Below are positions 6,769 to 51,174 of a stretch of 64,000 nucleotides of DNA, one piece after another. The DNA is taken from NCBI GenBank assembly GCA_947179485.1, contig OX359249.1, forward strand, positions 12,816,564 to 12,880,563. Direction: 5' to 3'. This DNA is from Allacma fusca (Eukaryota; Arthropoda; Collembola; Symphypleona; Sminthuridae). Position numbers and translations under genes: made by a program. Below the pieces are notes generated by a model. It saw only the letters and a list, made by a program, of their open reading frames with translations, had not been told where the DNA came from and did no database searches. Numbering within the stretch: position 1 is the first letter of the stretch; each line of letters starts with the position of its first letter.

Positions 6769-6888
6769 GTATTTCCTGAAGACGTGGACGACTTAGAAAT
6801 GAAAAATAATTCCCCGAGGAGCATCCCGGACAATGACGCCATCATTTCTGAAATGAATCCGTCACAGAGAATAACTCAAGCTCTCGAG
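6769..6888 (+). CDS. Exon 1 (first visible) of the modular gene
   Basis: Acceptor ...TTACTTTAG precedes 6769 and a GTGGTT donor follows 6888. It encodes 40 residues beginning VFPEDVDDLEMKNN, acidic and polar, ending TQALE. An in-frame ATG at 6799 (A at -3) could be the true start if upstream exons are untranslated; otherwise the frame continues from an unseen exon. Reading through the donor hits a stop after six codons. Confidence 0.6.
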
Positions 6889-9800
6889 GTGGTTTTATTC
6901 TTAAGATAATACTAATTAATTCCAATCAACTTCATTTAATTTACATTACCACAATCTTATACATTTATTACTATGTTTTGATAATGATACTGATACCACA
7001 TAATTGACATGATTGGACTTGACTTTACCTTTTTTATTGATATATTTATTTAGGATTTTTACTCCTTCGAATTCCAAAGTATTTGAGCACAATCTCATCA
7101 TTCAAAAGGCACCTTTCGCCTCAGTTCTAGAAAAACGGAATGGAAAGGTGTCAGACACACTATAAGTGCCCATTAGCATTTAAGAGATTGGGCAATCTCT
7201 ACCTAAACTTGTTTTGAATGATGGTGATTGAGGCAATCTGACAATGACATAGAACTCCTGGGATTCGTAGTGATTGATCAAGAGAAAAACTAGAAAGTAG
7301 ATGCTTGCCCGTGCTTTTTCACCTCTTAGAATTTGTCATTCTTTCCTCAAGCCCTAGTCCCATTCTCAAAACTTCTCCAAATATTTTTCATCCAGATCTC
7401 CAGCTGATCCCAGTTCTAAGTCCTTTCTTACCTCACTTCACTTATTTTTAATTACTCCCAGCTCCTGAATTGATCCCCAATTTCCACGAACTGGTCACTG
7501 TACACAAGCAGTTTTGACTTTTTAGTGCCTTGTGAAAAAACAAGCATAGACATAGGTTTTATTTTTCAAATTCAATTATTACTAGAAAGCTCACTTTTCC
7601 AATCCAGTGTTCTATTTCCTAAAATACTTCAGCTTTCAAATCAATTTACTGATTGTATAAAAACTTTTTGCCTCCCGTATCTTTTTTTCAAATATTTTAA
7701 TCCAAAAATTATATTTAATGCAAAAACCCTGGGCTGGGTTGTCCTACATGCCTCTGCACAATCGAATGTAATTTATGGAGTTATAATTTGTTTTCAAGTA
7801 ATTTTTTTTAGCCAAGCCATTTGCTTGTGTTAACAATGCTGGAAAGCACATACAGGGCGTCGGAGCATGGCAGGTATTTTTTCCTCTAAAAAGAACAGAA
7901 TTGATCAGAGGACAACGAGGGCTTCTGGCGTATGGGACAGACAAACATATCTTCTACTACTAGTATGAAGCAGACTATGGGATCTGGTCTTCTGGACGTT
8001 GACGACTACGACCATTACAGAAACTGTTAACATGAGAGCAATAACCAGGGACTTACAGGAGCTGAGATTTTAATCTTTTTTTTAGAAACACTCGCATTTT
8101 GGACTTTTGTGACATCTTGTGACATATGGTCACTCAATTGTTTTAACACTTTCAAAAATATACGGTTTGATTTTGACGGTAACGACTTTTACAAAAAAAA
8201 TTGACTGGTAAGTAATCGTGAATCTCTTGTGTGTATATATTGGGTATAAAGAACGTCTCGAAAACATTACGTATGGGAATCAAAAACTTGGGAAACTCGG
8301 CCATTCAAATTCTCGAAGGTACTGGAGTGGCCACGGAACAGGCTCTGGGTACTGGTGCCAGGATTGTTACAGGGGTGGCTGAGACCGCAGCGGAAGCTGC
8401 TGAGACTGGTGCTAAAAGTGCCATTCGTATTGCCAATGTGAGCATAGTATTCTAACATACTACACACAAGAAAATCCTTGATGTTCTCCACACATATTTT
8501 GTAGTGACACCTTTTTGACTAAAAGTAGTAGAATAACACGTAACTCCGTCACCTTTCGTAGTCATATATCTACTCCCAGTAGTGAACACATCCTTCCCTG
8601 CATGACAGTTCCTCATCCTTAGATTTATTGGAAATCTCCCTATTTAATTTCATCACAGGCATTATTTCATTCATTAGTTGTAGAGTCAGTCGTAGGACTT
8701 GTCTTTAGTGTCATTATTAAATACAGTAATTATTATTGTAGAGATTTTATTACACTACCACTAGATACTATTTAGCTAGACTACTAGTACACCTGCCTTA
8801 TGACAGTAGATTTCATCAGAGAGTCATGCAGAGTCTCTCGCACCAAAAAAAAAAAAAGATTCAGCAAGTACATTGTAACTGCAAATTGCACTGCCAAATA
8901 ATGAACCCCCTTAGTATTGATTTTTTTTCCACTGCTTCTTGTAAACATGGTCATATAGTCGAGTGATGTGGCATGAAATTGCCAAATCAATTGACTATGT
9001 CTCTGAGCATCTCAAGCTACTACAGTATATATGCAAGCCTCACGTAACATTCTGCCCTCGGATGATACTCATCTAGTGCACTTTTAAATTTGGAGACTAT
9101 GTACCACACTTTTGCCTAGACGGTCCTAGTGTAGAGATTGGCACTTTTCAAGAGCACTAATTGCAAAACTTACCTCTTCTTTCTAAACTTCAAACTTCTT
9201 TGGACAACCACAAGGAATTCATGTGTACGTGCTCCATTGTGGATTTTCTACTCTACAGAAATCCAGATGTAGACTTTTTTTTCCAATGCATGCACCCTAT
9301 TTGCAAGAGAAAAAAAAAGTACCTGTGTGTGACAATGGCAGTATATACCATCAACAATGCCAAGTTGCATCATATGCATGCTTGCTCCCTTATGAGTCTG
9401 CACGTTCACTTTACTCCCTGACTGAGTAAAGTCAGAGGAGTCATTGCATTATTTTCGAAAATTAAGTACATGCAACAATAAATAATTCCCTCTGATACGC
9501 ACTCTCAGAATTATGTACACACACACACAGGGCTCTGATGAGAGCAGGCACAAAGGTGTGTGCGAATATCACTATATAGAGATAATTTATATTTACTCTA
9601 TAGTATATAAACATGCACTGTGTGTGCCCAATGTAGGTCTACGGGCTATACAGGGATTACTTCACAAGAGTAACCGGACGAGCATGTTTCTGTGCATGTG
9701 TTGACGTCAAGACACTAAATGCTTTTTTTCTCTTTGCCCCCTTCCTCACGAAACTTCTACAGTGGCACTGCCAGCATAACTAAGGGGCAGTTTGAAATTT

Positions 9801-12800
9801 CCCTAGAATATTATTGTATGATATGTGATGATACAATTTTTGATACATGTAATAATGTAGGGATGATCAAACTGGTGAACCAGTTGCTGAGAGCACTTGT
9901 AAAAATGTGAGCTCTTAAAAGTGTAGGAACGACACAGTATACCATAAAAGTAATAATTATCTGTGCTATCAAAAACTATGCACTATTGACCAGTAAAGAA
10001 AGACTAATTACTACCTGACATAAGAGGTCATAATTTAGAAACCTGTACACAATTGGACTCCAAATTGAGGGAGCATATGTACCTTGTACTGTACTGGGTG
10101 CCGGGGCTCCGCTCAACAAGAGAGAGAGAATTGTCTACTTCCTATTACAGAAACGCATGTAGTCTAGATAATTGATAAACCTCATCGATGCAGGACTGGT
10201 GATGAAATTTTTCACTTTTACAATCCACCGAGCGTTTATTGCATGAGTTATGTCACTAATCCAAATGCTATAATTTGTTTTCGGGTATGAATCGTGTGTT
10301 TGTGAGATGGTAGTGGGTAGGTTATGAGTAATCAACTACTTTTTGTAATAATCCTTGCAAGTTGTACATTTATATATGGTATGAGTGGAGTGTGTGAGTT
10401 TGTGTGACATTTTATAACATATGTGTGAATCTTCAAGGGGGAATTTTTAAAGAAATTTTTCGGGAAACATTTAAATGTAGGGTGTCGCCAACTCTTTGAG
10501 CCAATCAACCAAAGTGCTCGTGGACACCAAGACCCAGCTCCTCAAGGGATTGACTGGTGGGGCTGCTTCATCCCTCCAGGCTGATGCTTCCTCCAACTCG
10601 GAATCGGTTCAAAGGAACGAGCGTGCGAATACTGGTGGATACTCCTCCGGTGGATACCCCTCAACATCCTATGTACGAACGAATTTGTATATGTAGAAAA
10701 AAAAGAAGGCCTACGGAGGAAAAATCTTGCACTTAATTAATTTTCTTATTTTTCCATTTTCTTAACAACTAACTGGTGATAACATTTGGGGCTTTTTTTA
10801 AAAAAAAAAACTCATACGGCGTTTTAACCCTTTTGCGGTATATGCCTATAATCTGTACATTTCGGGTGCTATAATAATTATGATGATACTCTACTAGTTA
10901 TAATTTATATAATTACAAATATATTCTCGTAAAAAATCCTGCACTTCTCTAGATATTTGGAAGGTCAGCCTTTTGACCCTCTCTATAAACTCTCAAGTAC
11001 AGAGTGATCTCTCAGATTCTTTATACGTAACGACTGTCTTTTAATTTTTTCTCGGAACACTCCTCTGGAACCAGATACTACAGTGTACTTTGTACTATAG
11101 TATTTAGATAGATACTTATAAATAATGTAAATTACTCTATGCATTGTTACCCTTGACTGGACCACAAAGCTTACTGTAGTGTGCACTGATTTCTCCTTTA
11201 GGGTCCGAACACTGTTGCTGAAACTCCCAACAACTTTCTCAATGTTTTCTCTCAGGCTGCAGCCAACACTGTCAACTTTGGTACCCAATTACTCAATAGT
11301 CTTGTCGGAGTTGCCGCCAACATTCTTCAAGTAAGATCTTGCCCTGTGATCAGTCAATGATCTTTACCATCTTTAACAAGAGCAGAGATTGTGGACGCAT
11401 TTTTATGTATAACCTTAAAGTCAATAAGGGTCACTGTAGCACAAGTCAGGATTTCTCCTACACTCCATATTTATTATTACCCCATAAGGGATAAATTAAC
11501 TCCAGACCTCTGTTTGTTTCTCACACTCACTCATTAAGCTACACATGCGTTCATACGCTCATTCTTACACTGACATTTGAATGTGAAATGATCTCTGCTT
11601 AAAAAAAAAAGGAATATACATACCTCATCCACACTCACCCTACACTTTTGACTACACATTACCTCAGGCAGGGAATGGTCTGAGTGCTGTAAACCACCGT
11701 TGGAAATTGTTATTTTATTCTCTTATTATCATTCATTTTATTGCAGGGTCAATATTACATCCGTCGTTTGCTTATTCAATACCAAACCCGCAGTTTTCCC
11801 TCTCTTACATAAAGCACCCCCATCCAAATTCAATAGTTAAATAATCAATGGACTATTTCAGTCTTACTTAACTCTCTATTTGTATAATAACAAGCTTTGA
11901 AAAACAAAACATAACAATAGAAAACCACAAGAGGGTCTGTATATGTGTAGGTAAATTTGAAGAAAGTGACCTTACTTTTAATTGCAAAGGAGCTCAAGCA
12001 TTAATGAAGCATGACCGTAGCTATTTGTACATCAAGAAGAGTTTTTCAATGGAGACACAGAGTCTTGTAGGGGATGCAGATATAATTTCAATTTTATGGT
12101 CCAAGCAATAAGTATTTAATTTCTGAGATTTTTTTTCTCTATCTCTCTCGAGCCACTCAAATTAAATTTGAAAAGCCTTTTGATTTATTTGATTGCCTAT
12201 AAATTTAGGATTTGAAGAGTGAGCTTTTTTTTTTCTTCTTCTGAGTCTCTTCGTCAGTGACAAAATAAACACTCCTATAGAAATGTGTGACATCATCCAG
12301 GGAAGGGATAAAAGTCACAATGAAAATTTGATCCATTATGAAATTTGTGAATAGGGAACCGTCTCCACTCTTTTGAGCCTTTTGAATGCCAAGGGACAGG
12401 TTGTCGGAGCCGTGGTTCAATCCGCTCCTCCAGTATTGGCTTCCGTGACTAGAACTGCTGGGGATGTTTTAGCTGCCAAGGCCAGAATCTTTGGAGCCGT
12501 TACTCAGGTAGGAGCTGCTGTGGCTAATTCTATTGGACAACTTGCCACCAACAAAGCAAATTCCCATAGTCCAGTTACTTCCCATGTTAGTACAGCTTAT
12601 GGTGTTCCTGGCAAATATTAATCCTGGAATTCCAGACCAAAGAGGTGTAGCAAAAAAATGCATGTGACTCCCTATTAGTATATAGTATTAATACTCGTAG
12701 TCTATAACTACACTACCTTAAGTACTACTATGTAGCTGTCATATATACTAAAAAAAAATACGAAAGACCAGCTCTAATACCTGACGCTATATCTGAGATG

Positions 12801-15800
12801 GGTGCTCATATGGATTTTTATTTCCTTCGAATTATTTTAAAATTTCGTCCGCGGCTTGATCTATATCTACTCTTTTGATCATGTGTGTGACTGAATTGAT
12901 CTACCGTTTTTTTTTAATTATTTTGATATACATAAATACTTCGTAGTCATTTTTATGTTTCTCATCACAATTTATAGCCTGTGTAGGGATCCCCACATTT
13001 ATTTTTGTATTACAATTTACTTTGACTCTCCCGTGAGTCTGAACAAGATAATCATATATATTTTGTATAAAAAGTAATAATGTAGTATTACCTAAGCTAT
13101 AGTTTAGTTCTTTCGAGCGAGATATCTACATATATATAGCTACACATATACTATTTTACTTCTCTACTAAATAGTATTGTACTGTCCCATTGGATAATCC
13201 TTTTGTGTGAGAGTAAGTGAGTTCCCTATGTAGCGCTCCACACTAGTACATACATAGATAATTACATAATACACTTGACACCTATATAAGTCTCTCCCCT
13301 GACCAAAATGGTCCTTCCCTTCTTAATTCTGATTACATTTGAACGATTTATGCAATTGGTTCAATGTTAACTACTTTTGCCAGTACAGTGGTACCTTGTC
13401 TGGACTTCGGGTGACTCACAATTAGCGAGATGGTTACTAGCATGAGGAAAAGTCTATTATATAGATAGTTGAGCCCGTGTGAATTTTGAAACAGTTTACT
13501 CTGTCAGTTGGAAGGTGTGACATTATAAAATTTAGATGATAAGTTCTCTCAAAAAAGCCAACAAGTATGAACGTGTGAATTTGATTGTGAGACCCTTCTT
13601 AAATCCCCTTTACCTAAATATAATTACATTATATAGATCCCTCTGAAATTTTGAGAGTCCCTCCCTTGGAATCAGTTCTTTCATTTTGAATTTGCTCATT
13701 TAATTTTTGATCTCTTCAGTTGTAATTTTGGGGAAAGTTCCTTATAACTATATTGATCTTGAGATTATTGACAATTTTTAGTCATAATTTTTTTTTAAAA
13801 CGGGAATAATTATTAGTGTTGTTCTAAAATTATTTGGCTTCCATGTGTGCTTTTATTTCCTCTTGGTAATAATTATTATAGTTCGTTGTCCACTCTCTTC
13901 CTCTCTCTCTCTCTCATATCCTCTGATTGAGTCAATCCTAATCGTGTGAATTTCCTATTGACTGAGTACGTCAACTTCAAAAGCTTTCCTTCATATAATT
14001 TTAATGGTTGCTTTACTTACTATAAATTTAAAGCTGGATCGTTTCGTTACCGTTACTTTACTTACCACAACTTACATAATTTACTTCTAGAATCAGAATG
14101 ATATCGCTCTGTGTGCCTATTTTTGCTTTAATTTGTGCATGTTTGTAACCCTTGTGTGTATTAATTTGAATAACGAATGGATATAATGCGAATGTTGTTG
14201 TGTTTTTGTGCTCTCAAATTTATTAACTCATTTGTCGATGGTGTGTCTAACCCTCAATTTCATACGTACTCTCAGACGTTTACTCACTGATACTTTTACA
14301 GATTACTACAAAAACTGAATACTTACTTTTATCGTTTTGTATAAATCCCTCAATATTCTACAGAAATTTATCTTATCATTCAACCAACAAAAATACAGTA
14401 CTGTGTAGTGGACATGCAAGTTTTGATTTAGCTTTTACTGATTGTCGCATTTATGGTTACAAGACGAATTGACTGATGTAGGAACCTTTACTTATAAGAA
14501 TAGTATTTCCCTCTCTTTTTTTTTTTTTTTTAAATTTCTATATAGTTTGCGTACAACTGTTTGAACAACTGTTGTATTTTTGAATCCTTACTCTACTTCT
14601 TTTCATTTGAGAGTGTTTTGCTTTTGTGTATGTGTGAATGACTCATTATCTCAGTAATTATAGTTGACTCGTTAGAATTTTAGTGTAGGTACATACAATA
14701 ACTGTATACAGTAATTTTAATTTAGATAGTATGCATACAGACCAAAAATTATTGTAAGACCAGAGACTAAGTATTTTTTTTTTACTTTAGAATAATTATT
14801 ATTGACCCAATATTTCCCCCCATGGATAAATGTTAGCAACTCCCTCCTATTACTTACTTTTTACCATTCTGTTAGAATCACTGATACAGTGAACCATTTA
14901 GTTGTTGACATGACAATAAAAACAATTATTCGAAAACTGACGTTTCTACTTCGCCTGGACTGATTTGACTTCATTTGGACTTACTACTTGTTAGTTCGAT
15001 ACATATAATTACTGTACACATTACACCAGCATACGAACGGACATCTCTGAAATTTGCTTAACTAACCCATACTTTTTATATGTGCTTTGTAGCTTTAAAA
15101 AAAACAAAAACAAATTATCGAACCTAGAATCTAGCTTAATTGGACCTGGATGAAGATTCTGGATACTTACATTTGGATAATTTTAATTGAAACCTGCATG
15201 TCTGAGCCCATGTGTTGTCCCTGGAGGTGGGTACATGTGTCGCATAATTATTAGGTAAAATTATTTTGACGCATAATTGCCTAACAGAGAGGTGGACACG
15301 CTTCCTCGATATTGCTTCCTCAAATATATCATATATATTTTAACTTAAGTTCGGAACCAATGATAAACTGCAAATTTGACGATGAGTTTTCTCAATTGAG
15401 AAGAAATTGTCCCTATGTTTGAACGTAAGTCTGGAAAGGGATATTTAATAATATTACGATAGAAGCTTCCTCCTAGGAGAATCCCTTAAAGTATATATCT
15501 ATGTATGAAAAGCTCTGTAATTTAGGACTTTGTGGCTGGTAATCGTAATTTTTCGAACTCGAGGGTAATATTGATAATTTGGTATGATATTAAAATTCAG
15601 TATACAAAAATACAGGGTTTGGCTCGTCTCTTCATTGAAGTTTTGAGTGAGGCTAGGAACACCCTTGCGTTGGTGAAAAGCAAAGCTAAGGAGTCCAAAG
15701 CCCGTGTCATGACTGCGAGTGGGAAAGCTTTGAGAATTAGTATAGGGGCTACAACCAGAGGTATTGAGAGTGTTCATGAGGTAAATGTTTAAAACATCCT

Positions 15801-18800
15801 GTTAGAATCTTCTTGACGGCAAAGTGTTGACAACATTTTCCTCCCCCATTACAAATGTACATATCTACACATATGGAATTGCATGTCCTAGCATTTAAAA
15901 GACACTAAATAATTTTACATATAAGCATTAAATGATTGTGAGCTGACCATTATTGTTAACCATTACACTCCCATGAAGTTCAAATTAACCAAATAAGCAC
16001 GGAAATCAAAGGGGGCTTTTATATATTTTTTTTACAACACATGTTAATTACCCACGCATGTCTAATTATTATTATTCCCTGATGGTGAAATGAAACCGCT
16101 GTAAATTAACCAATGCATGCAATCCATCCTCCAACATGAACTGCTCAACAGTCCCTTAATTAATTTACAAAGGCTGATTAACGAACAAACAAAAACTGAA
16201 AGTGAGTCTAATGGCCGTGTGAATATTCTTCCAAAGTTCCTTTCAATTTGAATTTCTCTAGAGTTTATATAACCCCAATGATCATAATCATTCCTTGTAG
16301 CTCCCGTCATATCTCCTCAAACTCAAATGTTCTCAAGTTTTCTATATTAATTATCTCCCTTTTTCTAAAAAAACCAATTACATAAACTCCCCACATTAGC
16401 TATTCCCCACAAAGGATGGATAATGTTTTTTTTTTGAATTTAAAATAATGTAAATTAATGGTTCCTCATTCCATTCAATTGTTCGGACAGGATAGGACAA
16501 TACACTGTAAAAATTACTAACACGCTGTTCCTGACAATCCTCAATATCCTCGCTTGTATCTACATACAAACAAATCTCTTGTTGAGCATTGTCTCCATCT
16601 CCTATATCAGACCCTTTGGTAATCTTGAGCTTGCCCAAGATCCCGTATGTACATAATGAGGAGATTCCATCAGGGAAACCCGCTCTGAGCACGTGGATTT
16701 TATTGAGTTGTTTGTGAGCAACAGAAACTCTCCCTTTATTTTAGCAGTGCTCTCGTGAATAATTATTATTATTGTCACATGAAACTTTATTTTTCCCCCT
16801 TTTAAAATTGTCATCCCTACACATACATAGATAGATATATAAGGAGGGACGACATCAGTCACTTGTGACAAGGGAAACATTCAAGAGTTAATTAATTTCC
16901 TTTTGATGGAATCACTCCTAAAATCCGGGATTCCACTCAGACACAACTCATACCTATCCTTTTGTATGTCTATGTGCATGATGCTATTTGATTTAAATCA
17001 AGAAAACGTGACAAAGTTTAATTTCCGAGTTGTCGTCACTCTCCGTGTGCCTACGTATGTAGATAAGGGCCTCCACTCAAAGTAGGATTTACATAGGCAG
17101 CCCTCGAGTTTCCCATATAATGGTGAAACTTAATAGGCTGAGAGTGATGACAGTGTTGTTAGAGAGCAGTTAACGAAAAACCACATTTTGCATGACTGAC
17201 TTAGGCTCTAATTACACGCTAGAGACCTACATAGTAAAAATTATATAGATGTAGAGCTATCTCTCTGGGAACATTCCCTAAAACAATTTGGTGTTCCGCG
17301 AATGACTCATCCCACACAGTTGTCGTCTCACTATGTATATGTAGATACACTCACAATCAGCCTGAGTGAGACTCCTCATGTGGCAATTAAAACTTCCTCG
17401 AAATGATTTAATTCTCGTTTTAACTTCCATGGGAGTTTACCACAAACCGTTTAGGAACTCACTCAGGAGCATGAGCCTGTATATAAATATGTATATATAG
17501 GGAAGAATCATTGCTACTCCTAAATGTGTAATTTACACCTCTACCTTTCTGCCCCATTCCGGTAGTATAAAGTAATCATTACTGTCCACTTACCCAGCAG
17601 AGTAGGGCTTAGTATATGCCTATATAGATCTATGTAAATAAGTCATCAGATATGTGTAAAATCCCACTGCATGCCTCACTGCCACATATGTGAACTTTGC
17701 TCACAATTAAGGAGAAGATGTGAGATTGATAAAGGTAGATGCTTGCATTATGAACGGAGGAGATTGCAATACCCTGTACAAAGTTAACTCTCCAATGGTT
17801 TGTACAACCGACCTAATTTGTGCGAGAGAAAAAAATTAACAGTAGATTTTATTCCCTTTATATGTACAACCTGGTGATCACACCTGTGGGAAATTTAGCA
17901 CACGCTCAAAACTTTTGCGTAACAATAATCAAATCAATAAACTTATATAGCATCGTACGCTGAACGTACGAGCAACAAGGATACATAATCTATCTCAACC
18001 ACACTCACTCATTTTTTTTTCAATGAACACACACTATCTATATATTTATATAGATAGATATAAAGTATGGGATGAAAATGTAACAAAATTTTGCCGTTAG
18101 GATATGAGTCTCTTCAGGGAGACCGACCTACAAGACAGGGCTCCCAGTGTAGTACTAATGGGACAGCAAACGTTAAATGTTTTCTACAACAAATTATTGA
18201 TAATAATGCAGAAACTGGGATTTTTATGGGAGTTTTCAATGCAAGAAGTTCTCTGAGCCTTTGGACAACTTTCTCATTACATTACCAGCCATCCAAGTGT
18301 ATCTTACAGAGACGTATGTATGTACGTAGTATGGCAAGTTGCCAACGAGATCAGAACAAGTCAACGGTAGCTAGTCACCTCTCTCATAATTAAACTCAAT
18401 TTATTATTCGAATTTTCAAAAATATCTGTCCACAATGGACTCTATGCAGGGAACTTATTACCCCTCAATCCATCTCCCCCAAACCCTGAGCTTTTTAATA
18501 TAGTTGATGGGAAAGATTCTAGAGATTTTACAACTTGTAGGATTTGTCAGGTAGGTAAATCATGTGCTTTGAAAAAAGACTACAGTAACTAATAGACACC
18601 GCTCAATCATTTGAAAGGAAAGCTCCGCTCAAATCAATTGAGAAACTGGTTGAAAAGAGAGACTTGACAAGAGAATAATTTTTTAGGCAAATCCTTCACA
18701 TAAGCAAGAAATTATGAGACAAGGGGAATCGCAAGTGTGGTCCCATTCTGGCTCGAATGTCTTAAAAAGTGTATAAGTTGCAAGAGGAGCGGAAGCAAAG

Positions 18801-21800
18801 GATTTTTTAATTCCATTGAAATTGGACCAGTTGTGGTGGATGCATTGCATGTCCCACTGTATTTCTAAAGTATCAGGTTTTTCGCAATGACAGAGCAAAG
18901 GCGTGGAACTAACTAAGTGGGCATAAATATGTGAGTCCGCCTGAATTGTAATGGTTTTTACTTGCTCAATCCTCCTTCCTTTGGAGGTAAAAAAAAAACC
19001 ATGGAAATACCTTGAGTAGGTGCATAGACATTTTGAACTCAGACTCAGCCAAACCAAAACATGTAGGAAAAGCTGTATTAATGAGACTGACCACTGGAAA
19101 AATACTCATGCAAAATATGGAGTATCTTGTGTGGAAACAATTGAGCTACCGGATGCCGTTGGGACTTAAGTTCGTCAGCCACTTGAAATAATGGAAGGTA
19201 CTAACTTTCAGAAAATTCAGTAGTCTGAGTAACAGCACTGGTGGAGTTTCAATTGTTCACTTTAATTTTCCCCATAATTTTATTCACTAGCTTTTGTTCT
19301 TCAGTTCGCACATATGTATGTATGTCCATAGGTACTTATGTACGTGTATTGCCCCAATAGTCTAATCTACTCTCAGTAAAAAATTTGCAAGACTGCACAC
19401 AAAAATACTTTTCACCCTGTAATAGATATATCACAGTTTGTATTTACCCCCAATAGTGTTTCAAGTTTCATAGAAATGAATTAGCGGCACTCAACTAGGA
19501 ATCACCCCACAGTAATTAAAAAGTAATTTGTTGTTTATACTGTAAATTATGTCTCACTCAGGTGATACACGACTGCACATGAGACTGTAGAAAAAAAAAT
19601 TGTGACTGGGACTACTAGCCTATGATAGGTAGTTCCTACAACTACAAATTGCTTTATAAGTTCAAGTGATTTACTGGTTCTGTACAGATGCACATAATTA
19701 ATTATACCTATATCAGTCCCAATAGAGTAGGTATGCAGGGCTTTGGCAAAAGTCCTACGATCTCCCTTTCCTTGAGTATAAGAATCTTACTGTGAGATGC
19801 CTTGAAAGGACTATGATTAAGACTCATGCTTGGATGTGAAGTGATAAGTTAAAATCTTGCCAAACACTTGTGATTAAAATGCTTGCAAAGAGTTAATCAA
19901 CACTATATAGACATTGCAAAAATATATATTCAAAACCCACATATGAAGGGATTATCTCTTCCTTGTACTAACTCCCAGGTGTGTAAATTAAGCTATGTAT
20001 TTGAGTGGATAGGTCATGTAATTAGTTTATTGCAAATTACTACTTTGGTGTGTGTACAGTTGAGGAGGATTGGAGTAAATGGCTAATTTTGGGGATCCCT
20101 CAGCCATGACGAGTTGTATGGTTGGTGGATTTTTTTTTTCTAAGGATTGTAATCTCAGACGGAGCTCTACTGGCTCAATTATTGTAATTGAATTTATCTG
20201 TAGTTGACTAGGGCACAGTAGTCAGTTCTGAAATCAAAAGTTTGCTCCTGCTATTTATGATCAAATTGTGGGGCTTAATACCTCAATTCATCTCGGAATT
20301 ATAGGCAGACTTGTGTGTGTGTGTGTGTGCAGAGCACATTTGAATTCGTAGTCTCTGTGCAGTTGGATTACAGGGAGATTACGCAAAGGATTGGGATACG
20401 TACATATGTACAGATGCAGATGTAGTAGTAGTGCTCTGTAGTTGATTGAGAGGAGTCTCCTGACAAATTAATTATGTCGCAACGTCGTCATTTGACAAAG
20501 ACAAACAAGAAGCTTACGTAATTTAGTAGGATTTTAGCAGTCCCATTAGATACTGTAACTTCTCATCAAGTCCATTGTGGTACTAGTGTGTCCAACTTTT
20601 CGAGAGTCCCAGTATCCTTAACTTTATTCCCATGTAGGAGATAGAGGGGCCAACAGTCAGAGGAGTCCTGAACAAGAGTCAATTAGCATGTCCTATACAT
20701 ATGTATGTACTTTTGACTCATTCAAAATCCTGTTTATTTGTAAAACATGTACAAATTGTGCCTGGGTTGACGTTGCCTTGGCAAGCATCTCATCATGTCA
20801 ATACTCAGGGGGAAACTTTTATTGTCTCCCTCCCCGACCAGCTTTTCAAGACGTCGTGGGCTTGAGACTGTAGAGTATCTGTAGTAGTGCAGTGAGAAAA
20901 AAAAATGCAGTGTGAGAGTAGTATAGGAATGTGAACTTGCCAAAAGTGCTCTCTCAAAACTATTTTATTTACGACGAATTTGCAAAAAGCACAAGTTAAA
21001 TTCGCGAGTTACAAATTATTGCAAAACTTTCCAAAGATGATAAATCACACTAAAAGTTCCTCCCAAGGATGATAACTTCATTAATAATGAGGCAATTGAA
21101 TAACCAGAAGAAACTTTTACTCTGTACTTGTATCTATCTATATGTGTAGCATCCGAGTCCAATTTAGGCCGTTCATTGAACGCTGCTACAACTCCGTGTA
21201 GGACATGTACACACATAGGAGCTGAGAAGGAACCAAATGTCCTTACCCAAAGTATGGAGAACAAAGTGTCCTGTATATGTAGATACATATAGTCATGTCC
21301 CAAGCTCAGACTATTACTTAATAAAAGGCAGAGTCAGAAGATGAAACTAAGAGGAAATTGCTATTATTACCGTGATGAGTTAGCCATTTCCAAGTTATGT
21401 ATTTTAGTACGGTTTAAATAATGCTGTATAGTTGTCCCGCTTTACGCTCATCACACCAATTTAGCTCTGTATGGATATTTTGCTAGTAGTTGTATATCAA
21501 GTAGTTTTGTGTATGTAGTAATTTGCACTGAGTAGTGTCTTGGCAAACTCTAATAATTAAATTTACTGTAGTAGAATCACTAACACTACTGCCTTGTCCT
21601 TAGGATTTCTAGACCGCACCCTTCTCTTCCCTTTTGTTGAAATGTACTACTTTTCTCTGACAAAATTATATCCTTGTGGTGAAAGGATACTCCAATTATT
21701 TAGAATTATTCGGTGATGACTCAATAGAATTTTCTATGTAATAAATCAGGCTGCCGTCAGTTTTGGAAGTCAGCTGGCCCGTGTTTTCGGTGACACTTTC

Positions 21801-24800
21801 AGTGGACTCTTGAATCGTCAAGGTGGGGAAGGAGGAAGTGGGGGAAGTCCTCTGGCCCAACTTGCTCAACTTTTTTCAGGTCTTACCTCCCGTGGTAGCG
21901 GAAGCTCATCAGGATTGTCCGGATCCGGAAGCTCACCTGCTAACCTTCTGGGGGGTGTTGGAAACGTATGACAGAAATTAATTACTCTTGTTCTTACCCT
22001 CCATTCCAATATGGAGTGTGGTGAGTTTGGTGTGTGTGGGTGGAGGGGGGGATATTTATTACTACTGTGACAATATGTAATTACGTTTTATTATATTAAT
22101 AGTTTGCCCAGACTGTCATCAACTCTAAGTTGAATTTATTGAATGGACTCTTGGCACCCTTCACCGGCGGACGTCCCTTGCTCAACTTCGGAAATAGAGG
22201 CTCATCATCATCAGGATCCTCCTCCTCCTCCTCTTCATCTTCATTCTCAGAACCTAATTTCAGAATCTCGATTGCGTCTGCATCCACACCCAACAGCATC
22301 TCAGTTTCCAGTCCATCAGACTCCTCAACAAAAAGCAGTGGTCCAGTAGGTGTCTCTTCCCCAATTATTTCATCCCCTTAACAAAATCTACTTAAATTCT
22401 AGTGGTTATACAATTTCATATGCCATTACTCTTGTGTCTGCTTACTTTTTTTTTTAACTTGATTTCAATCTGGAACCTAACTCATAAGCTGAAATTTCAT
22501 TTCCTTTTTTCCTTTGCTTTATTATTATTTTTTTTATCGAAACTTGTCAGTGATGAGTTGTTCTTCCTCCGAAACTTTGTTTCTTTGACATGAGAGTCAA
22601 TGGAACTTTTACAACAACAGGATATTTTTAAATCTCTAAATTTCCTTAACTTCCTTCCTTCCTTCAACAATGCTCAGGAGAAATTTTGATTGTCTATTTT
22701 ACGTAACAATGCATCTTCTAAATACACTCTGCAACTTCCATTTTTATATTATCCCTTACTTTTTATATTTTACAAGAAATCCTTCGTGACTAGTACTTTT
22801 AAAGAGTCAGATATATATTTAGCGTCGAAGAATTTTTTTTTTGTGTAGCTCTGTTGCATTTCTTTTGTACCAAATGAACAAATTTAAATTCAGAATCGAT
22901 GATTTTATTTTTGCTGCGTGCTCCGGACAGCAACCATTTTGGTATTACGTACATTATTAGTCAAGAGTATAGGTTTTAAAGTGGAATTTTAATTTTTATG
23001 AGAGGAGCCCCTCTCAATTTTACCATTTTGAGATTATGGTAAAAAAAACAATCCATATTATAGTTTGTATGATGGTGAAGGTTTCCTGAGTATGTGATAT
23101 ATTTTTGCAGGCACGAAAAAAAAACATGAAGTTGACTGAATGTTATAATTCCTATAGGTACTACTACAGCTTGAACGTATTTTCTGGTAGAATACACAAA
23201 TAATTTATTTGTCCATTGCAACAATTTATTTATTATTACGGTAATAACTTCAATTCAAAGATAGGTTGAGACTGGGTTTAGTTTTTATTGGCACTCATCA
23301 CAGAGCTGTCTTTCTCCAAAGATTCTTCCTGATGTTTTCAACAGTGCCTTACGAAATCAGAAGGGTTTTGTTTGTACACACAAACACACGCACTAAAAAC
23401 TCTCTCCCTTCCTATCCCAACACTTAATACAGTATTGTGTCATGTCACATTTGAAATAGTTGCTGTTCCCAGTACCACACTGGTCTTTTGTACTTGTACT
23501 ATATCCTAAAACATGTTTGCCATTCTAATGCCATAAACTCTGTTGCCTGAAATTCCGTATTATCAATGATAGAGCCGGGTCGCCAACAAGTACTTAATTT
23601 TTCTTAAAGCCATTGAAAAATAAGCCTTCAGAAAACTAACTTAACGAAGTTCGTAATTCATTGTGTAGGTACCTCTGCAATAATATTACACCTTGAAACT
23701 TTGTAAAAAAAATACTGTATTAAAATTATGTAATGGTATTCTGTAGTGTAGTGTTGTTGTTGTATGTACCTGCCCCCCCCCCCCTTCAAAAAAAAATTAC
23801 AAGTGACTGTCTTCCATCTTTCGAAAATGTACAGATATGAAATCTTGAATCTTTGCATAATACCTTTTTGTAGGTGATTATTGTTTGCTTTGTTGTTTGT
23901 TCGGTGGTTTAAGAGGACACATTTTGTGAATTAGGCTGGTATTATGTTACTTGGTCGCGTTATGAATGTTTTAGTTGTGAAAAGTCTCATGTAAATAACT
24001 TGTCCACTGTTTTTACATGTAGAATTTATTATTTTAGGAGTAAATGGAATGATTATTTTTCAAAGTTTTTTTTTTTTAAAAAAAACAACACACTTCGGGT
24101 AAGTCATAGTTAAGGACGAAACTCACACCTCGGAGGAATACCGAGCCTAGGGGAGGTCAGAGGGCTATTATCTTTTAGCTGTCCAGATCCATTCACATTG
24201 TACAATAATGCTTGATAAGGACTGGACAGATCTTTCTTGCTAGTGTCAATTATGATAGTATTACTTTTTGCAATATATACTTTTAATTTCGGATTTTCAT
24301 TTACTATACTATTACTATACTCCTTGACAACTTTTTCCAGTAAGGAAACATTATTTATAAATAATTTCCCTCTTGTGTTACTTCAGGATTCCTGGGTGGT
24401 GTTTTGTGACTAACTGTGCCTTTTGTAATCTTTGATATAATTAAATATGTAGTCCACAATGTAAGATAGCATTAGGAAAAAAAATGGATCCAAGTTAATG
24501 TCAAGGAATCCCAACAAGCTATAGCAATTACCTACAGATAAAAAATTATAGTGTGTGTAAATATATTTATACGAAAAACCGAATGTTGATTGCTTTGGTT
24601 GCTCAAGATGGTACTCAACTTCGAGTAGTTGTAAGTTTGTTTTTCCACAAAAATAATAAAAGTCATATTTTTTTAAAAAAACTTCAGCGCTACTCTAAGC
24701 TTTGGCAATATAATTTTCAATCCCGGTGTTTTTTTTCAGTCATTATAAGAACAGTAACTCTTCTACTTTTCTGGATTCCTTTATGAAATATTATACTCCT

Positions 24801-26656
24801 ACTTAGATCTTCGTCAGCCCGGGTCAAGTCATCTTGCTTTCGCTTTGTTTTTCTTTCAGCGACAATACAAAATAGTTTTGTGTCTACTTTTATTTTATGA
24901 ATGCTGTGAAAGTTTATTGTTTGAATGCTTCCATGTGGTAACTTGGTGAGTGTTCCCAATTGCAATGAAGCGTACACGTGTGGTAGGAATAGACTCTGTA
25001 CATTTGTAAATAAAAACCAGCTTGGCTTGTATTTATAGTAGTTCCTTGCAAAACTCATTTATAGTCAGTCTATGAAATTTTAAAGAAACTATTTGTATGC
25101 TGAGCTGACACAGCTCCGATGGAACATGACTTCCTTGAGATGAAAACAACGTGCACAAACTCAAGTGCAAATAAATAGACAGTTAATGAAAAGAATCCCT
25201 TAGGGAAAATATTGTATGCAGTTGCAAAAAAAAACAAGATGTAAATATTCCGGAGAACTTTTAAATTCCAGAGATCAAAGTGGAAAAAAGGTTCGGAAAT
25301 AGCCAATGAACTGTGTATGCACACCTGCTTTGAAGTATGTAACTCAGAGTTGATTCAAAGGAACGGTAATAATTTGTGAATGATAGAGCATTGTAAAAGT
25401 TCTCACGATCAAATCATACAATTCCCAGGAAAGCCAAGCTCTCAGAAATGAGTGAACCTTTTTTCCTCAAAAAACTTTGTCTTTGAAGTGGAAAGAGTTT
25501 TCAGAATGTATACATTTCTTGTGTAGGGTACAATTTAGAAATAATTATTACTACGGTAATTTCTTATTGAATACTGTAGTAGGATTTAGGCATCTCCATA
25601 CATACTTCCAAATATGTACTATCATTTAAAGTCATTACAACCAAGACTTTGGATTGACTTCATAAAATAAATTGATTTCAATCCTGTTCCCTTGGGGGAA
25701 ATCGGAGATTGGTACAAGTTCTGACGTGGGGAGAGTCTTTTAAGTTTTATTTGTTTCCTCTTAGTTTATATATAATAATTATATATTCTAATACAAAAGA
25801 GGGGATTCTGGAGAACTTGTCTTTCGGGAACTTGTCCCCGAACATGGTTATAAAATACTAGGAATTATTTTTTGATTCATGGGTTATTGCCCTAAGAACT
25901 CCTTCCAAGGAGCTAGACAATGGGTGTACCTTTCTCCCTTGTCGACCCTGATTTCTTTCTGATCACGTTGAGAATGTTTTCTGGGCTACTGAGAATCACT
26001 TGCTCCAGTGATGTGTAGTACGGCTTGTAACATTAACATTGGCGTTGGTTGATTCTATCCTCGATTCTATATTCTTGGGCTGTTTGTTTAAACATCTTGT
26101 ATTGATTTTCTGGGGATACAATCTCTTCTCTTTTCTCTGCTTCCCTTCAATGACAGCCCTTGAGAAAGTTTCCTCTGGCTTAACTCTGTCTGTACTACTA
26201 TCCTATCCGGTTATCCGGTATTGACTAACGTATGAATGCGGAATGTATGTTCCTAACAAGGACTCCGACTGAGTGTGTGTTTTTGATTGTTAATGTTGCA
26301 TGGCGCAGCGCTCTCCCAGGTTTTATTTGTCCCCGGAAGCCACACCAAAAACGGACGGTCAATTAACTAGCTCAAATTTGATTGCTACTTTCAAGAGTGG
26401 AGTTTTCAAAGGGATCGTCGACCAGTTTAACACAGACTTACAGACCAGGATCAAGAAGTTATCTTCCCCTGTGGCCAATGATCCCATCCTCGGTAGCTAT
26501 GACAACAGCTTCACCCGTAGTATCTTCACTCCCAAGGCCAGTACCGGATTCAACTCCAACTCCAAGGAGAACACTAATGGATTGGACTTCTCCAAGCTCC
26601 TGCCACTTGCATTTGCCAATGCTAATTTGAATAATGATTACTTCAACTTTAACTAG
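6769..26656 (+). CDS. Unrecognised modular multi-exon gene, Ala/Gly/Ser-rich protein with alternative 3' ends
   Basis: Gene-level entry. Coding exons seen: 6769-6888, 8252-8437, 10481-10672, 11202-11330, 12355-12507, 15616-15780, 21750-21965, 22103-22345 and 26309-26656. Every internal exon is a multiple of three (40, 62, 64, 43, 51, 55, 72 and 81 codons) and every junction is phase 0, so the chain reads open for 583 residues to TAG at 26654-26656. The exons are visibly richer in G+C than their surroundings. The predicted protein begins acidic. It continues with Ala/Thr/Gly-rich amphipathic helix (exon 2), a GGY-type Gly/Tyr/Ser stretch (exon 3), short hydrophobic helices (exons 4 and 5), a basic helix (exon 6), Gly/Ser linkers and a Ser tract (exons 7 and 8), and an Asn-rich C-terminus. 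I recognise no domain. The start codon is not fixed: a first ATG is at 6799, but the frame is open to the acceptor and upstream exons are likely. No signal peptide is visible. That these exons form one gene is inference from phase and order. Confidence 0.68.
8252..8437 (+). CDS. Exon 2 of the modular gene, amphipathic Ala/Gly/Thr-rich
   Basis: 62 codons, phase 0 at both ends. It opens NVSKTLRMGIKNLGNSA and runs into a repetitive Ala/Gly/Thr/Glu segment such as GVAETAAEAAETGAKSA. The AG at 8250-8251 is the only acceptor between the upstream in-frame stop (8219-8221) and the conserved-looking sequence, though its pyrimidine tract is poor. The donor is AAT|GTGAGC. The pattern of small and charged residues suggests a long amphipathic helix of the kind seen in LEA or perilipin-type proteins. 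That resemblance is compositional only. Confidence 0.7.
10481..10672 (+). CDS. Exon 3 of the modular gene, ends in Gly/Tyr/Ser-rich stretch
   Basis: Acceptor AAATGTAG, first codon GGT (Gly), 64 codons, donor TAT|GTACGA. The N-terminal half continues the helical style of exon 2 (GVANSLSQSTKVLVDTK). The C-terminal half is disordered and contains a GGYSSGGYPSTSY stretch reminiscent of structural or cuticle-like proteins. If the rather weak donor is not used, the frame ends after seven more residues at TAG 10694-10696, giving a possible alternative end. Confidence 0.72.
11202..11330 (+). CDS. Exon 4 of the modular gene, hydrophobic helix
   Basis: Strong acceptor (TTTCTCCTTTAG), first codon GGT, 43 codons, consensus donor CAA|GTAAGA. 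It encodes polar then hydrophobic sequence with FSQAAANTVNFGTQLLNSL and ends VGVAANILQ. This is an amphipathic or weakly hydrophobic helix, too polar for a confident transmembrane call. Confidence 0.75.
11747..11812 (+). CDS. Alternative terminal exon 5a of the modular gene
   Basis: An excellent acceptor (CATTTTATTGCAG) is followed by GGT in phase 0 and 21 codons (GQYYIRRLLIQYQTR then SFPSLT) to TAA at 11810-11812. There is no internal donor, so it can only be a last exon. An AATAAA at 12264-12269 lies downstream and before the next exon (12355). That fits a short isoform of about 230 residues made from exons 1-4 plus this one. Confidence 0.55.
   Translation, partial: GQYYIRRLLIQYQTRSFPSLT
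12264..12269 (+). other. Candidate polyadenylation signal for the exon 5a isoform
   Basis: A canonical AATAAA about 450 bases after the exon 5a stop and about 85 bases before exon 5b. Its position would allow premature 3' end formation. In AT-rich DNA the hexamer also occurs by chance. Confidence 0.3.
12355..12507 (+). CDS. Exon 5b of the modular gene; can read through to a stop at 12621
   Basis: Acceptor ATAG, first codon GGA, 51 codons to donor CAG|GTAGGA. It encodes GTVSTLLSLLNAKGQVVG and a Val/Ala-rich helix ending IFGAVTQ. If the donor is ignored the frame stays open for 37 further codons (beginning VGAAVANSIGQLATNKAN, ending TAYGVPGKY) to TAA 12619-12621. The extension keeps coding-like composition, so both a spliced and an extended terminal form are plausible. 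The extended isoform would be about 297 residues. Confidence 0.72.
14915..14920 (+). other. Candidate polyadenylation signal for the extended exon 5b isoform
   Basis: AATAAA within GACAATAAAAAC, 2.3 kb after the TAA at 12621 and before the next exon at 15616. It would imply a long AT-rich 3' UTR. Chance occurrence cannot be excluded. Confidence 0.2.
15616..15780 (+). CDS. Exon 6 of the modular gene, basic helix
   Basis: Acceptor TACAG, first codon GGT, 55 codons, donor GAG|GTAAAT. It encodes GLARLFIEVLSEARN followed by a Lys/Arg/Ala-rich stretch (KSKAKESKARVMTASGKAL) and ends GIESVHE. It is strongly charged and predicted helical. The frame is open upstream to about 15532, but the composition changes at the acceptor. 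Read-through of the donor would add only three residues. Confidence 0.75.
21750..21965 (+). CDS. Exon 7 of the modular gene, Gly/Ser-rich
   Basis: Acceptor AAATCAG, 72 codons, donor AAC|GTATGA. It begins AAVSFGSQLARVFGDTF, then Gly/Ser-rich linkers (RQGGEGGSGGSP and SRGSGSSSGLSGSGSS) around a short hydrophobic LAQLAQLFSGL segment. It is separated from exon 6 by a 5.97 kb intron in which I see no further convincing phase-0 exon. A stop follows the donor one codon later, so splicing is required here. Confidence 0.75.
22103..22345 (+). CDS. Exon 8 of the modular gene, Ser tract; can read through to a stop at 22381
   Basis: Acceptor TTAATAG, 81 codons to donor CCA|GTAGGT. It starts FAQTVINSKLNLLNGLL, then TGGRPLLNF, then a run of nearly uninterrupted Ser (encoded at about 22200-22250 by TCA/TCC/TCT codons) and more Ser/Pro/Ala-rich sequence. 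If the donor is skipped, 11 further Ser/Pro-type residues lead to TAA 22379-22381, giving an isoform of about 479 residues. AATAAA at 24655-24660 is one possible 3' end for it. Confidence 0.75.
26309..26656 (+). CDS. Terminal exon 9 of the modular gene
   Basis: 115 codons plus TAG, starting RSPRFYLSPEATPKTDG after the AG at 26307-26308, which alone keeps phase 0. The sequence is Ser/Asn/Thr-rich with a helical SGVFKGIVDQFNTDLQTRI segment and ends NLNNDYFNFN. The pyrimidine tract before this acceptor is mediocre. An ATG at 26300 would give MAQ plus the same frame, so a separate single-exon gene of 118 residues is the alternative. Coding-like base composition starts sharply here. Confidence 0.62.
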   Translation, partial: RSPRFYLSPEATPKTDGQLTSSNLIATFKSGVFKGIVDQFNTDLQTRIKKLSSPVANDPILGSYDNSFTRSIFTPKASTGFNSNSKENTNGLDFSKLLPLAFANANLNNDYFNFN

Positions 26657-31719: not shown

Positions 31720-32187
31720 TCACTTCTTTAGACTCTTAGTAGTTTCATCTTCAATATGGACAGATGATTTTTCAACGGAGGACTCTTCTTGTGAAGGAAT
31801 CTCATTAGATACGCTACTAGGAGTAGTGTTGACTACCTCATTATGACAAGGTGTCACCGACAGAGATTCGACACCGCTTTCGGCTTGACTGGTCACGTGT
31901 TCGGGTTGATGTTCCACAACCGCAACATGGATGGAATTTGAGTCGGAACAGGTTTTTTCTTTCTCTGTCTCAAGCACAGAGCCATTATCTGCTAATGAGA
32001 CAGGCTCCGAACGTTTTGTTTCTGGAGAGACTCCACACATAGGATGAGTCTTTTCAGGAACTCCAGCTGGTTTCTCACTGGAACTCACGGATGATCTTCT
32101 GCTGCCCGATGAATTCATGGTGCTTTTGACGATAGTTTCCACATCGGCTGAATCAACTATACTACCACGGGGTCCAGCGACCACAGT
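31720..32187 (-). CDS. gol: gol exon 10: terminal tail and stop
   Basis: Acceptor TTTCTAG, 155 codons to TGA at 31720-31722. It begins [18 protein letters not shown], then a long Ser/Glu/Thr/Val-rich tail with many acidic and Ser clusters, ending ETTKSLKK. The tail is probably disordered and phosphorylatable. The phase-0 join to exon 9 fits, but the tail itself has no diagnostic domain. Confidence 0.85.
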   Translation of the reverse strand, partial: TVVAGPRGSIVDSADVETIVKSTMNSSGSRRSSVSSSEKPAGVPEKTHPMCGVSPETKRSEPVSLADNGSVLETEKEKTCSDSNSIHVAVVEHQPEHVTSQAESGVESLSVTPCHNEVVNTTPSSVSNEIPSQEESSVEKSSVHIEDETTKSLKK

Positions 32188-35100
32188 CTAGAAACAAATA
32201 GGAATTTCATATTCAATACATATGTATAATTACACCATCCAAACAAATTTTTTACCAGGAATCATCGTCATCAGGGCATTCCACTACACAGTGTCAATCA
32301 TGAAAGGTGACCGTACCTAACGGATTGGAGCAACCCAAAATAAATTCCTTCTCGAAATAAAAAAATCCATCTACCTAATAATGACATATAACTCCGAGGG
32401 CCCAAAATAATTCCAATTTCTTAGGAGCTCTCACGAGGAGCTGTCATCCCTGAACTTTTACCCATTCCTTTTATTTAACGTATCCTAGCAACATTTTTCT
32501 TGTGTGGGTAGCTTTTTGGATAACAAAAACAGGCTCTTTACACAAAACAAATGTGATACGTTCAAATTCGGTCATCACAAAAATCGTTATGGGAGATTCC
32601 TACGGAGTTGGACTGACTTCCTTTTAATTTGTATGATTGCATGTCATAGCATCATAACAGTATTCAGGCTGATGATGGTTCCAGTTCCTTTCATTCCATG
32701 ATATGCATGAAGAAAGGAGACAGCTTCCTCCAAGGATTACAGGGTTAAGCCCCAGCATAATCGATAGTTTTAACACTCCGGACGCGGGCGAAAAGATATA
32801 TCGTGGAATTTTTATCATAAGACAAAGAATAACTCGATACGAATATCACTGTTGCTCCAAGCACCAACTTGGATTAACACATATGTGGTGAGAATACACA
32901 TGTAGAGGATGTACTGTATAGGGGCTGGAGAAGCCAAGGAGGAAACATAAAATGGGCCGGGAAATCGAGGTCAGCCACTTTTCTAAAGCATGCTTCGGGA
33001 ATTCCAGTCAAATCCCCATTACTGGGTATTGGTCCTAAAAGTTCAACTTTCACCAGAGAAACTTACCAGGGATATTAAGGAAGGTTTTCGTATCGACCCG
33101 AGATTTTGTTGGGAGGGAAATGACGATGAAACTGAAGACTGGGGATGTTCGTCCATCTGAGCAGTATGATGGGTTGGGTGATGCGGCTCATGACTTGGAG
33201 AGTCTGTTTCTCGAGATTCTGAGGAATTCATCACGTTGTCATCCAGGTCTAAATGGAGAATACTTTCCTGGCTCCCGGTAAACTGCAGGACCAATAAAAC
33301 CAGCACAAACAAAATAGGTATCGTCATGATGATGATGATGATGACAGCTTCAACTCATAATCACATTAATCTATAGGACTAGCTACCCCTGTAATACTTT
33401 CAGCAGGCAAAAACAACCTACGAACTGCTGACTACTATTAGATTTCTCCTCATCATCAACCCCCCCCCCTCCCCTGTACAGGAGTAAACTTCAACTTTAC
33501 ATGTACTCTCAAATACTAGAATACGACCTAAAAGGAAATCTATTAATTATACTTCATTTAAATCTTGAGTTTCCTTCCATAATAAAATTATTATAACTAG
33601 GTTCTCTACCAAAATGTATGGCAAGGAACGTGACAGAGTTTACAAATCGAATGAGCACAGCAGGAAGAGGAGTCGGTTGTGATTATGAGTAATTACTTTT
33701 TAATTACCGACTTCTCCACAGTAAACAAATATGTTCAAATGAAATTCTAAATACATTTGAGTTATTATTTAGGCTGGTGCGTGGGTGAGTGACTTTCCTC
33801 ACTTCCGCTCCCATCTTAAATACTTTAAAATGATCCTCAAAATGAAATTAAAGCTTTCCAGGTATTCATTTAATTTAATTCGTTTGCAAAAGACTCAAAG
33901 GCTTTTAGTTTCAGCGGTAGTGCCAAGACCAGTAAAACTACTTACTGTGAATTATTTTAATTCCATGCCCCTTTACAAAGGGGAGATGAAGTTGAAGACA
34001 GTTCCAGGAACTGTTATGCATACTACTCGGGCTAGGAAACTATAGAAGTCCTAACAGAAATAATCTTCTAAAATTCTTTTTGATGTGACGTACGAAATCG
34101 TATTTAGTTTTCAAAGGAACTCCAAAAGTTGAAAGAAATTAATTATTTACTCTGACTGTACCTCATAAATTCTGATACAACATTGACTTATCTCGGTCTC
34201 AGGCACTTCTGGTAACTACTTATAATTTAAAAGTGTTCCTGAATTAGTTTTTCTATTTGCTTACTCTCTCTCGTAAGCTAAATCTGCTGTTACATTTGAT
34301 TACATAAACTACCAGTTTTGGTAGAAAAACAACCAATTTGTATTTAAAGGAGTAGTACTAAAATCAATGGAGTTTCCTTAGAATTCGTAAAAACTTCCAG
34401 AAAATAAAATACCTCCAACTTCAGCATGTCATTTAAATAAATAATAGATGACTTTAGGTTGGAGACATGGTGCACCCTTTATTCCATCGAATCGTATGGT
34501 CATTTTGTGAAATTAAATATTTAAAATGACAGAATTCAGCCCGTGAGGACAGCACCCCACATGAATCCTGATATTTTTCTTCTACATGAAAAAAAGGAGT
34601 TGGAAAGATTCTAATTACTCCCAGGGTAAAGCATATGGAACTTTCAAATCTAAATTTTAATGGATTTTCTTGTAATCATCATTTCCTGATAAGAGACAAA
34701 GTGTAGTTGCGGAAAAATTTAGGAGCAAGGCACAGTGTCGTTTTTCCTACATCTCCCATCCTCATTTGCGGTGAGGCCGAGTCAGAGTCTGAATTAAATA
34801 TAAGTCCTGTGCACACAACACTGCATCTCTAATGTACATTTACTTTAGTAGTAGGAATTCCCTTGTAACTATGCGAAGGGAGACTTTCAAGAAGCTGGGA
34901 CATGTTTACTGTAGTGCCTCTGCATTCTTCATAAAGCCTGACGAGATCCTGAACCGCTATCAGCATCAAACTCCAAAAAGTACACTTGTACACACACACC
35001 AAATTAATTATCTTGCATTTCCTCATTAAATAATATATTTACTCTCCAACTCCTATCTCCTTTCCTCTCGGCTAAGTTAAAATTCACTTTAGCTCAGATT

Positions 35101-48932: not shown

Positions 48933-48974
48933 ATGTATGTATGTATGTATGTATGTATGTATGTATGTATGTAT
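48933..48974. repeat. (TATG)n tetranucleotide microsatellite
   Basis: About ten copies of ATGT/GTAT in a row. Shorter tracts of the same family in either orientation occur at 36425-36449 and 50917-50941, and scattered GTATGTATGT motifs occur throughout the window. Confidence 0.9.

Positions 48975-51124: not shown

Positions 51125-51129
<5 letters not shown>

Positions 51130-51170: not shown

Positions 51171-51174
<4 letters not shown>

Follow-up and report, generated by a model that had tools for sequence, protein, structure and literature searches.

A candidate modular gene of Allacma fusca built from phase-0 exons for amphipathic helices

Exons at the locus

We analyzed a stretch of 64,000 nucleotides (nt) from Allacma fusca (GenBank assembly GCA_947179485.1, contig OX359249.1, positions 12,816,564 to 12,880,563), hereafter called the window, and focused on positions 6769–26656 of its plus strand, where nine candidate exons (E1–E9) of one putative gene are located. 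The explanation that we favor, at a probability of about 0.5, is that they form a single splice-diversified plus-strand gene encoding a long amphipathic helix, which would coat lipid or a similar interface. An initial annotation of this region had described nine phase-0 exons, each a multiple of three in length and together encoding 583 residues, and these exons were reproduced: each of the nine stretches has an open frame, lies between AG and GT, and has a length divisible by three, with phase-0 junctions (40 + 62 + 64 + 43 + 51 + 55 + 72 + 81 + 115 = 583 amino acids, aa). The accompanying proposal that such modular exons tolerate skipping was also supported. The exons are listed below, with splice sites scored on a generic splice-site matrix.

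6769..6888, plus strand: E1, doubtful candidate acidic exon, 40 aa (acceptor 4.6, donor 6.0)
8252..8437, plus strand: E2, Ala/Thr amphipathic helix module, 62 aa (weak acceptor, 1.1)
10481..10672, plus strand: E3, helix module followed by a Gly/Tyr-rich linker, 64 aa (weak donor, 2.4)
11202..11330, plus strand: E4, helix module after a Pro/Asn start, 43 aa (acceptor 9.0, donor 7.3)
12355..12507, plus strand: E5, helix module, 51 aa (strong phase-0 donor, 9.3; weak acceptor, 2.7)
15616..15780, plus strand: E6, basic helix module, 55 aa (donor 7.7; weak acceptor, 2.8)
21750..21965, plus strand: E7, short helix, Gly/Ser linker and second short hydrophobic stretch, 72 aa (weak donor, 2.9)
22103..22345 if spliced, plus strand: E8, short hydrophobic segment and Ser tract, 81 aa (donor 5.5 at 22345)
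26309..26656 including the stop, plus strand: E9, terminal exon with an Asn-rich end, 115 aa plus stop

Downstream of E9, AATAAA occurs at 27401 and 27513.

Coding character of the exons

Each exon was scored with codon frequencies derived from the other exons and from pieces of a neighboring gene on the minus strand, described below (leave-one-out). One part of the neighbor training set, a segment preceding the PA piece, later appeared intron-like; it was present both here and when that set was used alone. The null set comprised 937 stop-free stretches (open reading frames, ORFs) of at least 90 nt elsewhere in the window, from which the exons and the gene at 31.7–43.1 kb were excluded. No null ORF reached the score of E2 (0/172), E3 (0/150), E4 (0/453), E5 (0/289), E6 (0/230), E7 (0/98), E8 (positions 22103–22342; 0/66) or E9 (0/8), for which just eight null ORFs were long enough. 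The codon use of E1 was indistinguishable from that of the null ORFs, 74 of 537 scoring as high. Therefore, of the nine-exon gene that had been proposed, E2–E9 are coding-like, and E1 is unsupported. The guanine plus cytosine (GC) content of E2–E8 was matched by at most 1.7% of the background windows and that of E9 by 2.5%, and E1 was within the top 3.3% of the 120-nt background windows. When both strands of the 64-kb window were scanned with a model trained on these same exons, and hence in a partly circular manner, the top eight segments were E7, E5, E3, E9, E2, E8, E4 and E6, the weakest of which scored 18.5, compared with 13.2 for the next-best segment. No further exon of the same codon style stands out in the window.

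With a codon model trained on the neighboring gene alone, the number of null ORFs that scored as high was 0 for E2, E5 and E8, 4 for E3, 3 for E6 and 11 for E7, and the exon-trained model gave negative scores to all five pieces of the neighboring gene. Because the neighbor-trained signal is weak and the neighbor pieces score negatively, the codon test reveals a style common to these exons and not a universal codon bias. The model based on the neighboring gene alone was rejected as too weak a coding test.

These results bear on the possibility that the exons are chance open frames in AT-rich DNA and not a gene. Several splice sites score like many random AG and GT dinucleotides, E1 itself looks like a chance frame, and the neighbor-gene-only model ranks E4 at 300 of 453 and E9 at 3 of 8. 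However, the leave-one-out codon test, in which E2–E9 exceed every null ORF, rejects chance ORFs for these eight exons, although not for E1; the GC contents given above and the ordered helix phase at the exon junctions also argue against chance, so that we consider this explanation very improbable.

Helix design within the exons

Substitution self-similarity at a lag of 11 residues was found in E2 (z = 2.5), E3 (2.7), E4 (3.3), E5 (3.8) and E6 (2.0), whereas 1.9% of 569 null ORFs exceeded z = 2 and none exceeded 3. For E5 together with its in-frame extension, E5x (see below), the value was 5.2. The hydrophobic moment at three turns per 11 residues (3/11) was significant in E2–E6 and in the first 47 aa of E7 (shuffle p ≤ 0.011; 0 of 3,000 shuffles for E2, p = 0.011 for E3, 0.001 for E6 and 0.008 for the E7 segment); no significant moment was found in E1, E9 or the opening part of E8. 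When every angle was searched, E2, E4, E5 and E7 peaked at 98–100 degrees (p ≤ 0.03). The moment amounts to 0.32–0.34 across 62–164 residues, the longest chain consisting of E4–E6 and the first 24 residues of E7, and the hydrophobic face is about 165 degrees wide, almost half the helical wheel. Charged residues account for 6–18% of these sequences, and G, A, S, T, N and Q together for 51–59%. The Gly/Tyr, Gly/Ser and Ser stretches come after the helices, like linkers or tails. AlphaFold2, run with no alignment, predicted one helix at residues 3–69 of E5 plus E5x (mean pLDDT, the predicted local distance difference test, 79) and helices at residues 2–24 and 29–61 of E2 (mean pLDDT 80); the models, each folded on its own, lend weak support.

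The structural or surface-coating role suggested in the initial annotation is plausible. A rival explanation, which concerns the role and overlaps the others, keeps the modular gene and has the helices pair with one another instead of lying on lipid, either as a hendecad coiled coil or in a structural protein of silk-like, cuticle or adhesive type, a reading close to that of the initial annotation. Consistent with self-pairing, the lags of 7 and 18 residues are likewise raised in E2, E4 and E5, and the Gly/Tyr and Gly/Ser tails are reminiscent of structural proteins outside the cell. The wide face and the scarcity of charges point the other way, because coiled coils usually have a narrow stripe and salt bridges. 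We regard self-pairing helices as unlikely. An ice-binding protein with Thr spaced at 11 residues was also considered, by eye, and was not adopted.

Helix register across exon junctions

We determined how far the hydrophobic face turns between the end of one exon (its last 22 residues) and the start of the next (its first 22 residues), at 98.2 degrees per residue and with moments of at least 0.25 on both sides; the windows were also varied from 15 to 29 residues, and the borders were trimmed by 1–3 residues. Exon borders are set by the splice signals and the reading frame, independently of this test. At the five natural junctions that are amphipathic on both sides, the offsets were −14 degrees (E2/E3), +13 (E4/E5), −3 (E5/E6), −9 (E6/E7) and −32 (E7/E8), a continuity with p = 0.00006–0.00007 relative to random phase. 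The p value remained ≤ 0.00034 after trimming and ≤ 0.0009 across the window lengths, at which three to six junctions reached the cut. When skips were counted, 13 of the 16 forward joins were within 45 degrees, the joins out of register being E2–E4 (−86 degrees), E2–E8 (−57) and E4–E8 (−49). Reading through past the E5 donor rotates the face by −63 degrees, with a moment of just 0.22 and a gradual turn; splicing to E6 gives −3. Since helix phase is kept across the junctions, these results argue for the single gene that had been proposed earlier.

Similarity among the exons

Exon starts, anchored at the borders and compared without gaps, resemble one another (z = 5.9 for E2, E3 and E5–E8, with E4 omitted, and 5.8 for E2–E8), and the similarity of the six starts was matched by 0.03% of random offsets. 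The ends of E2 and E4–E7 are also alike, though less strongly (z = 3.3), and that of E1 is not clearly like the other exon ends (shuffle p = 0.10–0.24). Taken singly, the starts of E2, E3, E5, E6 and E7 each ranked among the top three windows of their own exon. The initial annotation had held that the modules differ in chemistry, which is only half right: E2–E7 follow a common amphipathic-helix design, and the starts of E2, E3, E5–E7 and, less clearly, E8 are similar. Chemically unrelated modules were therefore rejected on the basis of the 11-residue lag and 3/11 moment, the junction phase and the similarity of the starts. The resemblance may go back to a symmetric helix exon that was duplicated long ago.

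Alternative ends and the number of genes

Three further plus-strand features might provide alternative ends of the encoded protein.

12508..12621, plus strand: E5x, continuation of E5 in frame up to a stop (12619–12621), possible alternative C-terminus, 37 aa with a Tyr/Gly tail
22103..22381, plus strand: E8 extension, frame open to a stop (22379–22381), with which E8 may be terminal
10324..10389, plus strand: candidate alternative first exon, signal-peptide-like, 22 aa (phase-0 donor 4.0; 91-nt gap to E3)

E5x is coding-like, with 2 of 633 null ORFs scoring as high in the codon test. Upstream of E1, no signal-peptide-like start with a donor above 4.5 was found, and three weaker ones (donors 1.7–2.3) were unconvincing.

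These features raise the question of whether the region contains two or three adjacent genes of one duplicated family, for example 10324–10389 with E3, E4 and E5/E5x (secreted, 217 aa, with a Tyr/Gly tail), then E6–E8, and then E9. In favor of this, E5x is coding-like with a stop at its end, and the E8 frame likewise runs to a stop; the signal-peptide-like start, which is strongly hydrophobic, precedes E3 by 91 nt; E3 and E7 have weak donors; and AlphaFold2 predicts that the E5 helix continues into E5x. Nevertheless, the E5 donor is strong (9.3), and helix phase is seamless at E5–E6 and E2–E3. From 12621 to E6 the sole AATAAA is at 14915 (with one ATTAAA at 15589); past the E8 stop, in the interval that leads to E9, AATAAA does not appear until 24655 (ATTAAA at 23719). 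Furthermore, four signal-peptide-like starts with a donor occur at three places over both strands (128 kb of strand), that at 10324–10389 being the only one on the plus strand, and by our estimate its position is roughly a one-in-ten coincidence. A division into several genes appears fairly unlikely.

Several splice-like sites within the locus were also observed. An inner in-frame acceptor of E4 at 11256 (9.4) outscores the acceptor of E4 itself (9.0), and an E4 shortened from there would start with AAANTVNFG, like the start of E7 (AAVSFG). A DNA repeat (D19; 30 nt, 70%), one of the 20 of 41 repeat families listed, pairs this inner acceptor with the start of E7, which may be due to chance. The highest-scoring donor-like site listed (9.9) is at 22020, about 50 bases past the in-frame stop that follows E7, and no coding role was found for it.

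Comparison with known families and systems

The joined E1–E8 chain, E9, E7, E5 plus E5x, E2, E3, E4 and E8 were used as Pfam queries, E1 and E6 being covered within the chain alone. Matches were taken up to an expectation value (E value) of 10, although the HMMER filters remove most above 0.1; none was above the cut-off, and the two listed had E values of 0.093 and 0.23. Among the Pfam matches listed, there were no perilipin (PAT), synuclein, apolipoprotein or LEA families. A PDB sequence search gave three matches, the best of which (a putative exported protein, E value 0.042) is no relative. The Pfam profile and PDB searches thus bear out the initial view that the protein has no recognizable known domain. 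A Foldseek search of the PDB with the E5 plus E5x model gave no match, which is uninformative for a lone helix; no relative was confirmed in viral contigs (E5 plus E5x) or prokaryote genomes (E7), collections that do not consist of animal genomes; and Rfam and tRNA scans of the sequence found nothing.

In design, the closest counterparts are perilipin 4 (Plin4) and the 11-mer region of perilipins 1–3, which are described as long, weakly amphipathic 3/11 helices rich in small residues (PMC5889406). E2–E6 show the 11-mer amphipathic pattern of the PAT family, a likeness of design and not of homology. Unlike in Plin4, the repeats here have diverged and are spread over separate phase-0 exons, include some aromatic residues and are joined to Gly/Ser linkers; charged residues amount to 6% in E4–E5, compared with 15% printed for Plin4 (PMC5889406). 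Alpha-synuclein and exchangeable apolipoproteins such as apoA-I are also described as having amphipathic helices of 11- or 22-residue periodicity on lipid (PMC5889406, PMC6164224); the charged fraction is 0.06–0.18 here and 0.24 and 0.35 in the values printed for synuclein and apoA-I, respectively (PMC5889406). The moments printed there for 3/11 helices are 0.257 for Plin4, 0.30 for synuclein, 0.35 for Plin3 and 0.39 for apoA-I, and the 0.32–0.34 found here is in the range of the latter three (PMC5889406).

The exons conform to the pattern of a symmetric 0-0 exon gene (multiples of three in the same phase), with a reservation for the E9 acceptor and the weak sites. Tropomyosin-type genes have interchangeable alternative helical exons that keep the helix register. 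These encode heptad coiled coils, whereas the period here is about 11 residues and the hydrophobic face is wide.

Neighboring gene and surroundings

On the minus strand, positions 31720–43052 contain pieces of a gene for a PA-TM-RING protein, comprising a signal-peptide exon near 42.8–43.0 kb, PA, transmembrane and RING pieces, and a Ser-rich C-terminal piece. The Pfam matches for RING (E value 0.00066) and PA (0.0047) were both below the curated cut-off, and we take the gene, from its transmembrane sequence, to be a Goliath/RNF150-like ubiquitin ligase. Microsatellites (ATGT, AGAG and AG) occur at 48929–48981, 51126–51174, 52061–52100 and 59154–59195, and 15 of the 16 tandem-repeat rows are to the right of 36 kb.

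Weighing the evidence for one modular gene

The following observations count against a single modular gene of duplicated helix exons. First, the periodicity is uneven. The 11-residue lag signal is absent from E7, E8 and E9; in the all-angle search, E3 (p = 0.36) and E6 (p = 0.06) peaked at 98–100 degrees without significance, and the peaks of E8 (p = 0.69) and E9 (p = 0.27) were not significant. Lags of 7, 11 and 18 go up in any long amphipathic helix, and the helix phase drifts within E5 from 161 to 105 degrees. Second, the register has exceptions. E3/E4 and E8/E9 fall outside the test, one side of each not being amphipathic; the start of E4 is off register by −86 degrees from E2; an 18-residue window lets E1/E2 through the cut at −66 degrees; and the p value for the junctions weakens to 0.001–0.018 if 100 degrees per residue is assumed.

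Third, duplication is not equally evident in all exons. Taken singly, the start of E8 ranked 5 of 62 (weak) and that of E4 ranked 10 of 24 (not alike). In ordinary local pairwise alignment, the sole significant pair was E3–E4 (z = 6.8), followed by E5 with its own extension E5x (p = 0.04). The similar starts and equal phase are partly one signal and not independent, and the likeness could come from a common constraint instead of duplication. Fourth, the acceptors of E2, E3, E5, E6, E8 and E9 are weak (1.1–3.3), each being equaled or exceeded by 26–53% of all AGs, as are the donors of E3 and E7; on the same matrix, sites of the neighboring gene that were picked by eye scored 5.5–8.3 (three acceptors) and 5.9–12.0 (four donors). 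Weak sites fit either regulated cassette exons or wrong borders and are not decisive. At E9, a phase-2 acceptor at 26320 (7.9) outscores the phase-0 acceptor at 26309 (3.3). Finally, E5x codes, and therefore E5 may be terminal.

A proposed mechanism and its significance

From the sequence, we infer a single transcript, alternative splicing, lipid binding and duplication. E2–E8 would descend, with divergence, from one symmetric 0-0 exon that encoded an 11-residue-periodic (3/11) amphipathic helix and was duplicated long ago, the case for E4 and E8 being less clear. Some of the copies would have gained Gly/Tyr, Gly/Ser or Ser linkers, and E9 would be the terminal exon. With the exon borders placed at roughly equivalent positions of the helical turn, joining neighbors or skipping exons would in most cases preserve the reading frame together with the hydrophobic face. 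Through splicing, a single amphipathic helix would be made longer or shorter and given a different tail (E5x, the E8 extension or E9). By analogy with the helices of perilipins, synuclein and apolipoproteins, the protein may be little folded in solution and become helical on a hydrophobic interface, such as a lipid droplet, a lipoprotein or another coated surface; exon inclusion would set the length of the helix, and the length would set its affinity. For Plin4, more than 66 residues are reported to be required to reach lipid droplets and longer helices to bind better (PMC5889406).

Tentatively, and with rather low confidence, we further propose that the exons are interchangeable in both frame and helical phase, and that splicing would serve as a dial for the length, and hence the surface affinity, of a giant amphipathic helix. 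Open-access titles and abstract openings did not describe helical phase with exon skipping, hendecads with exons, or exon duplication with amphipathic repeats, which is weak evidence of novelty. The relationship between helix length and lipid affinity has been tested with engineered Plin4 repeats (PMC5889406). If splicing proceeds in the proposed way, the gene would offer a natural experiment in helix length and lipid-surface affinity, and most skipped forms are predicted to retain one continuous hydrophobic face. If this is true, exon borders would be kept for protein geometry besides the reading frame.

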